DNA from: Clostridium pasteurianum DSM 525 = ATCC 6013
GTDB lineage: Bacteria; Bacillota; Clostridia; Clostridiales; Clostridiaceae
Length of the DNA: 64,000 nt
Assembly: GCF_000807255.1 (NCBI RefSeq)
Contig: NZ_CP009268.1
Span: forward strand, 1,518,384 to 1,582,383
Direction: 5' to 3'
The translations under genes were made by a program, and so were the position numbers. Shown one piece after another: positions 20,163-55,744 of this stretch (position 1 is the first letter of the stretch; each line of letters starts with the position of its first letter). The notes beneath the pieces are model-generated. The model was given only the letters and a program-made list of their open reading frames with translations, was not told the origin of the DNA and searched no databases.

Positions 20163-21434
20163 ATGATTAAAATTCCCTATTCAACAAAAACCCTAAAGAT
20201 AAACATAGATAATAAAAACTTAAAAGGTATATTGATATCTAAAGCACACAATTATAAAGTTAATGAATCACAGGAGTATATAGTAAACAGAGCACTTGAT
20301 AATCCAATAGGAAGCGAAAGACTAGAAGATTTAGTAAAGAATAAAAATAATATGGTTATTATAACTAGTGATCATACAAGGCCCGTTCCAAGTAATATAA
20401 CTATGCCAATTTTACTTAATAGAATTAGAAAAGTAAATCCAAGTATAGATATAACTATACTTATTGCTACAGGATTTCATAGACCCACAACTAGAGAAGA
20501 AATGATAAATAAATTTGGAAGAGAAATAGTTGAAAAAGAAAAGATTATAAATCATGTATCTACAGATAAAAATGATTTAACCAATGTAGGTGTATTACCT
20601 TCTGGTGGACAGCTTATTTTAAATAAATTAGCTATTAATACAGAATTATTGATATCAGAAGGTTTTATTGAGCCTCATTTTTTTGCTGGTTTTTCTGGTG
20701 GCAGAAAAAGCATTTTACCCGGAATAGCATCAGCAGAAACTATAATGGCCAATCACTGTTCAGAGTTTATCAATAGTAACCAGGCCAGAACTGGAATTAT
20801 AGAGGATAATCCTATTCATAGAGATATGCTCTACGCTGCTGAAAAGGCAAAATTAGCATTTATTTTAAATGTAGTTATAGACGCAGATAAGAAAATCATA
20901 AATGCTTTTGCTGGAGATAGAAGACTGGCTCATGAAGAGGGCTGTAAATTTGTTATGGAGCTTTCCAGTGTAAAAAAGATAGAGGCAGATATTGCAATCA
21001 CCAGTAATGGAGGATATCCATTAGACCAAAATATATATCAAGCAGTAAAGGGAATGACTGCTGCCGAAACTACTTGCAGAAAAGGCGGAGTTATTATTAT
21101 GATAGCAGCCTGCAATGATGGTCATGGTGGTAAGTCTTTTTATGATAATGTTTCTAATGCAAAAAATCCTAGAGAGCTTCTTGAAAGAATACTAAATGTA
21201 CCAAGAAATAAAACTATACCAGATCAATGGGAAATTCAAATATTGGCAAGAATTTTAAATGATTATACTGTAATTATGGTTACTGATTTGTGTGATCCAT
21301 CTATGATTGAAAATATGCATATGAAACATGCTAAGACTTTTGAGGAGGCTTTAAAGATGGCTTATAATATAAAGGGAGAAAAGGCTGAAGTCGTAGTTAT
21401 TCCTGATGGAGTATCAGTGGTTGTCAGTGATTAA
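20163..21434 (+). CDS. larA: LarA-family nickel-pincer racemase
   Basis: A 423-residue lactate racemase/epimerase family protein. All family landmarks line up with Lactobacillus plantarum LarA two residues out of register: D70 and R73 (DHTRPVP), H106 (ATGFHRP), H172 (EPHFFAG), K182 (GGRKS, the lysine that carries the nickel-pincer cofactor) and H198 (ANHCSEF). The family interconverts D- and L-lactate or other 2-hydroxyacids. Cofactor genes larB, larC and larE are not in the window. RBS CGGAGGT is good. It stands alone after the nif cluster and before a repeat-rich non-coding block. True substrate uncertain: LarA homologues act on several hydroxyacids. Confidence 0.88.
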   Translation: MIKIPYSTKTLKINIDNKNLKGILISKAHNYKVNESQEYIVNRALDNPIGSERLEDLVKNKNNMVIITSDHTRPVPSNITMPILLNRIRKVNPSIDITILIATGFHRPTTREEMINKFGREIVEKEKIINHVSTDKNDLTNVGVLPSGGQLILNKLAINTELLISEGFIEPHFFAGFSGGRKSILPGIASAETIMANHCSEFINSNQARTGIIEDNPIHRDMLYAAEKAKLAFILNVVIDADKKIINAFAGDRRLAHEEGCKFVMELSSVKKIEADIAITSNGGYPLDQNIYQAVKGMTAAETTCRKGGVIIMIAACNDGHGGKSFYDNVSNAKNPRELLERILNVPRNKTIPDQWEIQILARILNDYTVIMVTDLCDPSMIENMHMKHAKTFEEALKMAYNIKGEKAEVVVIPDGVSVVVSD

Positions 21435-21440
21435 ATCATA

Positions 21441-22340
21441 ATAGTGGGAAAGGACGAAACAAACGTCAAAGTGCAAAGTTCAAAGAACAAATATCAGATT
21501 TAGAAAAGTGATAGGAGTAAAGTTACCTATTAAGTTAAGAGTTAAGAGTTGAAAGTTGAGAGTGATGGATATTTTTCTTCCGTTACACTACAGAAAAATT
21601 TAGAATTAATAAATACAAACTTAAAAAAGGAGATTGGTTTATAAAAGGTTTTTGGGCGGTTAGCCCGGTGGTTTAGCAGTGATATTACATTAATATGATG
21701 AATCTACGTTGACTGAGTATTAGCATTTAGATAGTTGTTTTTATAGTCCGAAGGACTATAGGATTAATACCTACAATTTTGTATAGTTAAAAATATTTAT
21801 TTGGTGGCTACTAGACTCGATTTTTCAATCATATTAAGTATAGAAAATATCGATGTTTAGATAGTTATTTGAAAGCTAAGAGCTGTAATACTTCATTTCT
21901 AACAAGGTGAAGATAACAGCTGCAACTTCTTCATGTAATTCATCTAAACTTATATTGTATATAGCTCTTGTTAAGGGGTATTTTATTAATAACATGGTCC
22001 TACGGACAGGTCAACAGAATTAACGAATGTTTAGTTATATTTTGAAAAATTTTATTACCTAAGTTAGTTAGCACAGCCGACCTACCGGTCTAAAAACCTA
22101 TATTGCCATTTAAAATGTTAAATTATTAGTTCTAAAGCTTTTTTCGCAGTACAGCGAAGAAAAAGCATCAGTAACTCTTAATTCTTAATTTTTAACTCTT
22201 AACTAATTGTGAATTTTGTTGTAAAAGACAAAATCACCTTATTTGTTTTTTGGACTTTGATATTTGAACTTTTTTAAACTCTCCACTTTCCACTATCCAC
22301 TTTCAACTGAGAAAAGGATTGTTTCGTCCTTTTCTCCAAG
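21441..22340. repeat. Nested inverted-repeat element with unique core
   Basis: This 900-bp gene-free block is bounded by inverted ends: GGGAAAGGACGAAAC at 21446-21460 and GTTTCGTCCTTTTCTCC at 22321-22337. Inside these lie further mirrored segments: AAAGTTCAAAGAACAAATAT on the left and TATTTGAACTTTTTT on the right; TTAAGAGTTAAGAGTTGAAAG on the left (21536 on) and CTCTTAATTCTTAA and TTTAACTCTTAAC on the right (near 22185-22204). The same outer ends flank only about 50 bp in the short copies near 43.1 and 55.7 kb, so this looks like the same element enlarged by a core. The core (about 21590-22180) has no good ORF. Confidence 0.65.
21646..22099 (+). ncRNA. Candidate large structured RNA
   Basis: The core folds with several exact pairings. 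A closing helix joins AGGTTTTT (21646-21653) to AAAAACCT (22092-22099), extended by CGGT/ACCG. Inside are hairpin TATAGTCC-gaa-GGACTATA (21742-21760), long-range GTTTAGAT (21855-21862) with ATCTAAAC (21942-21949), nested AGCTGT/ACAGCT and CTTCA/TGAAG (21881-21921), and GTCC-tac-GGAC (21997-22007). It is richer in GC islands than flanking spacer DNA. Strand is inferred from the direction of larA and mgsA. It is not a group II intron, since no domain V hairpin was found. It could be a large RNA such as ROOL, GOLLD or OLE, or a new class; I cannot assign it. Confidence 0.5.
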
Positions 22341-22419
22341 TACTAACTACTTATTTCTTTGAAGATGCTATAATATATGATATAATTTTATAAAAAAGAT
22401 TACATCGAGGGGGATTAAT

Positions 22420-22872
22420 ATGAGTATAGATAAATTAGAAAAACAAAAGAAAATTGCACTTGTTGCTCACGACAATAGAAAAGAGGCTTTAATAAGCTGG
22501 GCTGAGGAAAATAAAGATGTCTTATGTAAACATTTTCTATGTGGTACCGGTACTACTGCAAAACTTATTACTGAAAGGACTGGTTTACAGGTAAATGGTT
22601 TTAAAAGTGGCCCCATGGGAGGAGATCAGCAGATTGGAGCAAATATAGTTGAGGGTAACATAGATTTTATGATTTTTTTCTGGGATCCATTGACATCGCA
22701 ACCTCATGACCCAGATGTAAAAGCTCTTCTTAGAATTTCAGTTCTATATGATATTCCGATAGCTATGAGCAAATCTACAGCAGATTTTATATTGAAATCT
22801 CCTATTATGGAAGAAGAATATGAAAGACATGTGATAGATTATTACAATAAAATAAGGAAAAACAATTTTTAG
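22420..22872 (+). CDS. mgsA: Methylglyoxal synthase
   Basis: A 150-residue enzyme converting dihydroxyacetone phosphate to methylglyoxal and phosphate, a bypass of lower glycolysis under phosphate limitation. Active-site residues are present: H17 in VAHDNRK, the phosphate loop GTGTTAKL, D69 in GGDQQIGA (catalytic base), and H96 and D99 in QPHDPD. Length and layout match the family. RBS is GAGGGGGA. Two possible TATAAT -10 boxes lie near 22369 and 22380. It stands alone and is convergent with the small gene downstream. Confidence 0.94.
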   Translation: MSIDKLEKQKKIALVAHDNRKEALISWAEENKDVLCKHFLCGTGTTAKLITERTGLQVNGFKSGPMGGDQQIGANIVEGNIDFMIFFWDPLTSQPHDPDVKALLRISVLYDIPIAMSKSTADFILKSPIMEEEYERHVIDYYNKIRKNNF

Positions 22873-30988: not shown

Positions 30989-31030
30989 GTGAGTATTGGT
31001 TTTCATAGATAAAGAAGAGGAAATAAGAAT

Positions 31031-31090
31031 CAAAGTATAAAGTTCAAAGAACAAATAACTAAATCTGTTCTTTGAACTTTATTTTTGAGC
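31031..31090 (+). repeat. Palindromic repeat, terminator after clpB
   Basis: AAAGTTCAAAGAACA (31039-31053) pairs perfectly with TGTTCTTTGAACTTT (31066-31080), then ATTTTTGAGCTTTTTT. The left arm is the same AAAGTTCAAAGAACAAATA string found in the elements at 21.5, 43.1 and 55.7 kb. It probably works as the clpB terminator. Confidence 0.75.
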
Positions 31091-31112
31091 TTTTTTAAAT
31101 CTCCACTGTCAA

Positions 31113-31850
31113 CTAAGAATTATTTGAATTACCTGTCTCTCTTTTTATAATAAATTCTTTTGCTTCCAATTCCAAATCATTATTTATAGGTTCAAGGGAA
31201 ACTTCTCCATATTTTAGGCCTAAGGCAGTTTTTATTAATCTATCTGCAAGCTCTGGATTTTTGGATAAGAGAGAACCGTGGAAATATGTTCCATAGGTGT
31301 TTTTATATATACAACCTTCATATCCGTCAGAACCATTATTACCATAACCCTTTATAACTTTTCCAAGAGGTTTTAAATCATTTATATATGTTCTTCCGGA
31401 ATGATTTTCAAAACCTACATATATTTCACCAGTATCCTCATTCTTTATTACTGTATTACCTATAAACCTAGTATTACCACCATCTGTATATATATCAAGA
31501 ATGCCAAGGCCATCTAATTTGTCACCTTCTGGAGTAGTATAATATTTACCAAGTAGTTGATAGCCGCCGCAAATAGATAAAAATACCTTGCCACTGTTTA
31601 TGTATTTAGATATACCTTCCTTTTTTGTATTAATCAAGTCACTGGATACTATAGATTGTTCATAATCCTGACCGCCTCCAAAGAAAACTATATCGTAATC
31701 CTCAGGATTAAAATCATCTTTTAAAGATATATTAAATACATTTACCTGTATATTTCTTTGTTCAGCTCTATATTTTAGGATCAATATATTTCCTATATCG
31801 CCATATACATTTAATAAATCAGGATACAAATGACAAATATTTAATTCCAT
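31113..31850 (-). CDS. gatD: Lipid II isoglutaminyl synthase, glutaminase subunit GatD
   Basis: A 245-residue class I glutamine amidotransferase (CobB/CobQ-like). It releases ammonia from glutamine for MurT, which amidates D-iGlu of lipid II to D-iGln. Nucleophile C94 lies in LSICGGYQLLG, H191 in YFHGSLLSKNP, and FFGGGQDYEQ near residue 57 is typical of GatD. It is downstream of murT in the same operon, as in most Firmicutes, but an 85-bp palindromic element separates them. RBS is GGTGGTG. Confidence 0.92.
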   Translation of the reverse strand: MELNICHLYPDLLNVYGDIGNILILKYRAEQRNIQVNVFNISLKDDFNPEDYDIVFFGGGQDYEQSIVSSDLINTKKEGISKYINSGKVFLSICGGYQLLGKYYTTPEGDKLDGLGILDIYTDGGNTRFIGNTVIKNEDTGEIYVGFENHSGRTYINDLKPLGKVIKGYGNNGSDGYEGCIYKNTYGTYFHGSLLSKNPELADRLIKTALGLKYGEVSLEPINNDLELEAKEFIIKRETGNSNNS

Positions 31851-33333: not shown

Positions 33334-33433
33334 AAAATAAAATTCTATAATATATTTGTCCAATGACTTTCATTGATAGAATTCCCATATTATATCAATG
33401 TGGGAAGTAACAGTTGATACGTCTCTGGATAAC

Positions 33434-33482
33434 GATTTCTAAGTTTAAGATTGAAAAAAATTTCATATTAAACTTAGAAATC
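33434..33482. promoter_or_regulatory. Large hairpin in the murT-manA divergent region
   Basis: A perfect 15-bp inverted repeat (GATTTCTAAGTTTAA, arms 33434-33448 and 33468-33482) with a loop that can pair GAAA/TTTC. It lies about 100 bp upstream of murT and could be part of its leader or an operator. The rest of the 377-bp divergent gap is AT-rich without other clear signals. Confidence 0.5.
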
Positions 33483-33740
33483 TATTTATAATTATTTCAT
33501 AAAATTTGATTAGTAAACAGCAATTAATAATTATCATTGCTTATAGTATCACAATTCAATTAGCTTTACAAATTAAAGATGATCAAAGGGAGAATGTAAG
33601 AATTGCTTTAGTACAACTACGTTGAAAATTTGCATGTTTAGAGGTAATATGTAATTAATATTATTAATTTTAGAAAAGTTTATGGAATTTTTACTATTTG
33701 TGCAACAGAAGTTAATATTAGATTATTTTAGGAGGTCACT

Positions 33741-43037: not shown

Positions 43038-43123
43038 ATAGTGGGAAAAGACGAAGGTCAAGACAAAGTATAAAGTTCAAAGAACAAATATCAAATGAGG
43101 AAAAGCTTCGTCCTTTTCTCCTA
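43038..43123. repeat. Palindromic repeat, family A, copy 2
   Basis: About 86 bp. Ends are inverted: GTGGGAAAAGACGAAG and CTTCGTCCTTTTCTCC. Between them is CAAAGTATAAAGTTCAAAG followed by AACAAATATCAAAT. Almost identical to copy 3 near 55.7 kb. It lies between two convergent genes and may serve as their terminator. Confidence 0.85.
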
Positions 43124-55660: not shown

Positions 55661-55744
55661 TAGTGGGAAGAGACGAAGCTCAAGGCAAAGTATAAAGTTC
55701 AAAGAACAAATATCAAATGGGGAAAAGCTTCGTCCTTTTTTCCA
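55661..55744. repeat. Palindromic repeat, family A, copy 3
   Basis: About 84 bp. Ends are inverted: GTGGGAAGAGACGAAGCT and AGCTTCGTCCTTTTTTCCA. The middle holds AAAGTATAAAGTTCAAAG followed by AACAAATATCAAAT, nearly identical to copy 2 near 43.1 kb. It is placed between convergent genes. Confidence 0.85.

Follow-up and report, generated by a model that had tools for sequence, protein, structure and literature searches.

The gene-free block of about 900 bp between larA and mgsA in Clostridium pasteurianum is very probably a nest of transposase-less mobile repeats—a foldback MITE of a kind mostly flanked by TA, whose core contains a second, structured element, here called R1, the whole being copied as a unit. 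In the window—the entire 64,000-nucleotide stretch of DNA that was analysed—larA (PF09861, PF21113) and an MGS-domain gene (PF02142) flank the block, which holds no ORF of at least 40 aa with an ATG, GTG or TTG start and no stop-to-stop frame longer than 53 aa, so that the gene-free spacer described in an earlier note is borne out. The composite element spans 894 bp (21444–22337, forward strand), with TA on its left (21442–21443) and AA on its right side (22338–22339). Three further copies are found in the same genome (G000; 4.35 Mb, one contig) at 1465583, 1677861 and 1766301, sharing 97–100% identity over 871–899 bp in unrelated flanks. The core, which the earlier note had called unique, is thus unique inside the window only, the whole element being present as four near-identical genome copies; diverged or partial copies also exist. 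That the block represents a decayed protein-coding gene or transposase is hardly conceivable: it does act like a transposable element, with its copies in unrelated flanks, but no frame exceeds 53 aa, and the changes that are seen preserve a fold instead. All four near-identical composites (1465583, 1539823, 1677861 and 1766301) lie on the forward strand, within about 300 kb.

The composite is built from modular arms around a core. The left outer terminal inverted repeat GTGGGAAAGGACGAAACAAA (21444–21463, forward strand) pairs with its right counterpart (22319–22337, reverse strand)—a 14-bp perfect pair inside longer imperfect arms. Further inwards, a simple AGTTAAGAGTT-type repeat forms the middle part of the left arm (21532–21561, forward strand) and makes the inverted pairs I2 and I4 with the middle part of the right arm (22173–22204, reverse strand). 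The left inner arm GGATATTTTTCTTCCG... (21567–21620, forward strand) recurs in other loci. L012, L022 and L030 have this arm but lack the core, and L005 combines it with no more of the core than its left end. The right inner arm ...CGAAGAAAAAGCATC (22116–22172, reverse strand) recurs in related copies; ends similar to the inner arms are also present in other genomes of the same family. These loci provide intermediates: L012 consists of inner arms without a core, L005 bears a different palindrome in its loop, and L006, L008 and L011 hold the core (21616–22125, forward strand) wholly or partly as diverged or partial copies. L006 is without about 130 nt of it, and large parts are missing in L008 and L011. 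The right third of the core (21991–22116) is conserved in these three loci and could be matched to no source element; a blastn search of the core against plasmid and phage collections gave no match.

The outer layer has simpler relatives within the window. Two minimal outer MITEs of 81 bp lie at 43041–43121 (forward strand, TA on both sides) and 55663–55743 (forward strand, TA on the left side only), and the composite ends share 80–81% identity with them over the first 67–69 nt. The ends common to the block and the two palindromic repeats had been noticed before and are confirmed, with a repeat length of 81 bp, and not 85, by the boundaries drawn here. A truncated member of the same outer family is seen at 31017–31115. 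Duplication of TA is a mark of IS630/Tc1-mariner-type transposases. Of 34 ends supported by BLAST, 23 have TA immediately outside and 11 do not; copies with TA on both sides include L002, L003, L006 and the window copy at 43041–43121. With MITEs of the IS630/Tc1-mariner type, the outer element shares terminal inverted repeats, TA at most ends, many copies and a short minimal form; it differs by long, modular arms that are variable in the middle and by a filled loop. Judged from these flanks and ends, the outer layer would be a foldback MITE of this type, with the TA flank as observed and a presumed enzyme of that class. The proposal of a non-autonomous mobile repeat with captured content is hence supported: there are four copies with different flanks, TA at the said proportion of ends, and nested intermediates.

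The same block had been suggested to encode a large non-coding RNA, of the ROOL, GOLLD or OLE kind or new, as cargo of the repeat. At gathering thresholds, a scan of the window against Rfam found nothing in the block, neither ROOL, GOLLD, OLE, raiA or HEARO nor group I or II introns; at E ≤ 10, the region 21200–22600 returned just eight sub-threshold matches to eukaryotic microRNAs and snoRNAs, and at E ≤ 5 seven related loci showed nothing bearing on the element. Among the two candidates scored in each of the other 205 same-family genomes, none matched the core over its full length. The earlier claim of much more structure than expected stands in part. The whole 900-nt block folds at a z-score of −11.4 (20 shuffles), an excess that is attributed mostly to the inverted arms. 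For the core alone (21616–22125), folded as RNA, the forward strand reaches a z-score of −2.66, with none of 100 dinucleotide shuffles as good, against −1.69 and 6 of 100 for the reverse strand. 

The complementary pairs listed for the core are all found (21646/22092, 21855/21942, 21881/21916, 21891/21908, 21742/21753 and 21997–22007). In A4—an alignment of five copies, two of which are nearly identical and two of which, L008 and L011, cover only part—93.1% of 130 cells in these helices form standard pairs versus a shuffle mean of 90.1, and five pairs show double changes versus a mean of 2.0, values that 4 of 500 shuffles equalled or exceeded for either measure. Four of these five pairs belong to the stems AGCTGT/ACAGCT and CTTCA/TGAAG, and the fifth to the hairpin GTCC-TAC-GGAC (21997–22007, forward strand), which is paired in 18 of 20 cells across the five copies. 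The perfect hairpin TATAGTCC-gaa-GGACTATA (21742–21760, forward strand) occurs only in the two near-identical rows. The helix closing the core over 440 nt (21646/22092) shows no compensatory change across the A4 copies, and two of its eight pairs are broken in L006. A large structured RNA is therefore quite improbable: the folding of the forward core and the pairing of the listed helices speak for it, but Rfam gives no match, the core is never full-length elsewhere in the family among the candidates scored, its closing helix is without double changes and has two broken pairs in L006, the double changes that exist are confined to the stems of R1 and a single short hairpin, and related cores do without about 130 nt or more. 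The block gives no evidence for a giant functional RNA.

The covarying stems lead to the inner repeat. When the core was searched in five genomes of the same genus, that of the window included, 29 matches were obtained in one of them (G003), nearly all to a single part of about 90 nt, and these extend to a unit of about 125 nt with fixed ends: R1. A covariance model was derived from 18 G003 and G000 units, the window copy excluded, on an alignment (A2) in whose computed structure helix 3 is missing; covariation was judged on a separate alignment, A5. This model matches the block at 21864–21990 (forward strand; model positions 1–125, 46.1 bits, E 1.2e-7), a decayed copy that contains the stems AGCTGT/ACAGCT and CTTCA/TGAAG; this conserved repeat does not include the left strand of helix 21855/21942. 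The window contains a second R1 at 33355–33489 (forward strand; 31.3 bits, E 0.0003), of a subtype ending CTATTTAT. The roughly 130 nt by which the core exceeds that of L006 (21741–21870, forward strand) lie between the direct repeats TTTAGATAGTTGTTT (21726) and TTTAGATAGTTATTT (21856). Here, 21826–21854 is similar to the right-hand portion of a different R1 subtype: with one of six references it scores 33, where 300 shuffles reach 28 at most, and with the remaining five it does not surpass the respective shuffles. This extra stretch may hold a second R1 remnant, as the similarity suggests.

R1 consists of two hairpin domains within about 125 nt, a three-helix domain plus one hairpin. A5 comprises 48 of 56 copies; L045, L124, L049 and L008 were excluded, as were L048:2534, L067, L068 and L063, which bear loop inserts or cut ends. 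In total, the model gave 91 matches, many of which represent the opposite strand of a copy, and weaker ones were left unused. In A5, 94.2% of 1248 cells are paired versus 81.0% in shuffles, and double changes are seen in 18 of 26 pairs, amounting to 217 cells versus a shuffle mean of 75.7, a value reached in none of 500 shuffles; structures slid by one to three columns are only 35–45% paired. The 48 copies measure about 125–135 nt, and copies with loop inserts up to about 180 nt. Their ends are not inverted—R1 is without terminal inverted repeats—and the unit is too short for a transposase gene. Given further palindromic inserts of about 50 nt inside the loops of R1 (L048:2534–2712, L067:1506–1687, L068, L182 and L183; for example ...GTGAAAGCGA...CTGCTTTTCT), nesting continues within R1. 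The right ends of R1 (L121–L142) also vary together, as CAAG...CTTGAT versus AAAG...CTTTAT, which suggests that changes in the terminal pentamer go along with changes in a complementary stretch further inside.

R1 is widespread. With the model, matches were found in 81 of 206 genomes of the same family, presumably the Clostridiaceae (E ≤ 0.01), often with at least about 17 scored per genome, and in 23 of 391 genomes across the class (E ≤ 1e-4), 13 of the same family and the other 10 spread over six further families. Scanning named genomes by sequence pattern yielded at least 120 stretches; among the 80 matches listed, most are from Clostridium—C. ljungdahlii, C. ragsdalei, C. beijerinckii, C. 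chromiireducens and C. puniceum, for instance—and Haloimpatiens; Niameybacter, Mobilisporobacter and an Acholeplasmataceae MAG contig occur once each.

How R1 enters DNA can be read from empty sites. In a 19.9-kb stretch of G133 compared with two relatives, G136 and G134, two R1 copies have an empty counterpart, one in G136 and another in both relatives; a third copy lies in a rearranged part, and the result concerns the two copies only. The empty site carries TTTAT once; the filled site reads TTTAT, the element from CTGATG to ATTCATTGAT, and the right flank, without any duplication, and the right end after insertion is TTGAT for both copies. In three R1-rich genomes (G018, G012 and G026), all 20 copies inspected begin with TTTAT, and their right ends are TTGAT or TTTAT in 18 and CTTAT in 2, the model used for finding them spanning both ends. 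The best pairs within these genomes share 94.6%, 93.0% and 87.7% identity, with medians of 84.0%, 78.4% and 81.7%, respectively; because identities are of this size, the copies may be fossils. Haloimpatiens lingqiaonensis bears head-to-tail arrays of two or three R1 copies with a spacing of about 130 nt and one TTTAT per junction (L366:2650–3040, L308:7416–7675, L313:4328–4590 and L358:274–533). Either the right end of one copy became the next target, or the arrays arose by tandem duplication, which is possible because copies within an array are nearly identical.

Insertion of this type resembles that of IS200/IS605 elements, and one R1 hairpin equals IS605-type end hairpins over 16–20 identical nucleotides, namely those of tnpA+tnpB elements in G003, G009 and G179, the terminal sites of which differ from R1. 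In 80 transposase loci, no autonomous element was seen that bears R1-like sequence at its two ends; what is shared with R1 is the hairpin. A match to a Y1 transposase is absent in 4 of 14 R1-rich genomes and a TnpB match in 7 of 15; in G018, G012 and G026, neither was found. Of 39 Y1 loci, which mix IS200-type and REP-type genes, 36 were searched for R1, and one of them, L157, has it next to the Y1 gene. Two loci were excluded as copies of L091 (L092 and L094), as was L098, which holds the L006 copy about 1.2 kb from a Y1 fragment. With that single locus, and with units that do not flank a TnpA-REP gene, the idea of R1 as a REPIN was rejected. Likewise rejected was the idea that R1 is the right end of a TnpB element, acting as guide RNA: 40 of 41 TnpB loci—L111 fell below the cut-off—gave six matches in five loci (L257, L104, L251, L106 and L265), in two of which (L104 and L106) R1 lies more than 1 kb from the tnpB domain. 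The copy at L257:1777–1909 is situated 76 nt upstream of a tnpB domain whose open frame is short, as would be seen had R1 inserted into tnpB.

A strongly covarying repeat could also represent cis-regulatory or small RNAs whose repetition is incidental, and several R1 copies (L041, L043, L046, L051, L061, L067 and L130) end just before a same-strand start codon, as judged by eye. Against this stands the precise insertion seen from the empty sites. In addition, two R1 copies interrupt the remnant of a Mg-chelatase gene in L157, identified by Pfam before the first copy and by eye in its continuation. The mismatches of R1 are, moreover, less rich in wobbles than those of a 5S rRNA control: in mostly Watson–Crick pairs, the ratio of G-T to A-C mismatches is 26:19 for R1 and 12:2 for the control, both small counts, and over all predicted pairs 74:24 and 156:3. 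These mismatch types lean weakly towards a DNA fold, and a regulatory or small RNA is highly improbable as an explanation for R1. In L157 (1450–2800), a Y1 transposase domain is fused to the gene remnant that bears the two copies.

For the composite as nested mobile repeats, the following course is proposed. An outer foldback MITE would have acquired a core holding at least one R1 element, probably a palindrome-associated transposable element (PATE) of the IS200/IS605 type. R1 itself inserts 3′ of TTTAT without target duplication; it would do so via single-stranded DNA, in an IS200/IS605-like manner and presumably by TnpA action, and the conserved folds would be DNA hairpins used for transposition. 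The filled MITE, observed today in four places, would later have been copied there as one unit, presumably by transposition, and the R1 copy in the block is decayed and has probably lost its own mobility. Several points speak against the nested-repeat reading: no element with complete R1 ends was found, R1 adjoins a Y1 gene in one of the 36 loci searched, some R1-rich genomes show no Y1 or no TnpB match, the window copy is flanked by TA and AA, 11 of 34 ends are without TA, and the right third of the core has no source assigned to it. Because the fold of R1 is kept in genomes without known IS200/IS605 machinery, R1 might instead be a very widespread, undescribed clostridial mobile element that is moved by an unrecognised enzyme or has a functional transcribed fold—guide-RNA-like, for example—and such folded elements would be collected and spread by foldback MITE vehicles; we consider this unlikely.

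No description of the R1 family was found in the open-access literature; known systems close to it are the following. PATEs and IS200/IS605 elements have palindromes near their ends, make no target duplication and use a targeting sequence of 4–6 bp; PATEs are described in Haloquadratum walsbyi, where mobile repeats are also inserted into other mobile repeats (PMC3119063), and one PATE-like copy is reported for Halanaerobium (PMC7290912). R1 is similar in being gene-less by its length, in its palindromes near the ends, short target and lack of target duplication, in one hairpin resembling IS605-type end hairpins, and in the nesting of repeat in repeat. R1 differs by its occurrence in Clostridia and its compact form of about 125 nt with a three-helix domain and one hairpin, and no cognate IS was found for it. 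Group A IStrons insert 3′ of TTGAT, ATTAT or TTTAT (PMC4227781), and R1 insertion 3′ of TTTAT uses one of these pentanucleotides; the IStrons end with TCAG, whereas R1 ends with TTGAT or TTTAT and is without an Rfam group I intron match and without ORFs. The REP and REPIN sequences of TnpA-REP (PMC6006769) are likewise dispersed hairpin repeats linked to Y1 enzymes; R1, on the contrary, does not consist of two inverted copies of one REP, and its Y1 neighbour in a single one of the 36 loci searched sets it further apart.

The nested-repeat reading clears away a false trail towards a giant RNA. New is the R1 family itself, a structured mobile repeat that now has an aligned model and that has no Rfam match in the loci scanned. 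Strong covariation and, for some copies, a position before genes can lead to repeats of this kind being taken for riboswitches or non-coding RNAs. The R1 model makes the question of its transposase directly testable.
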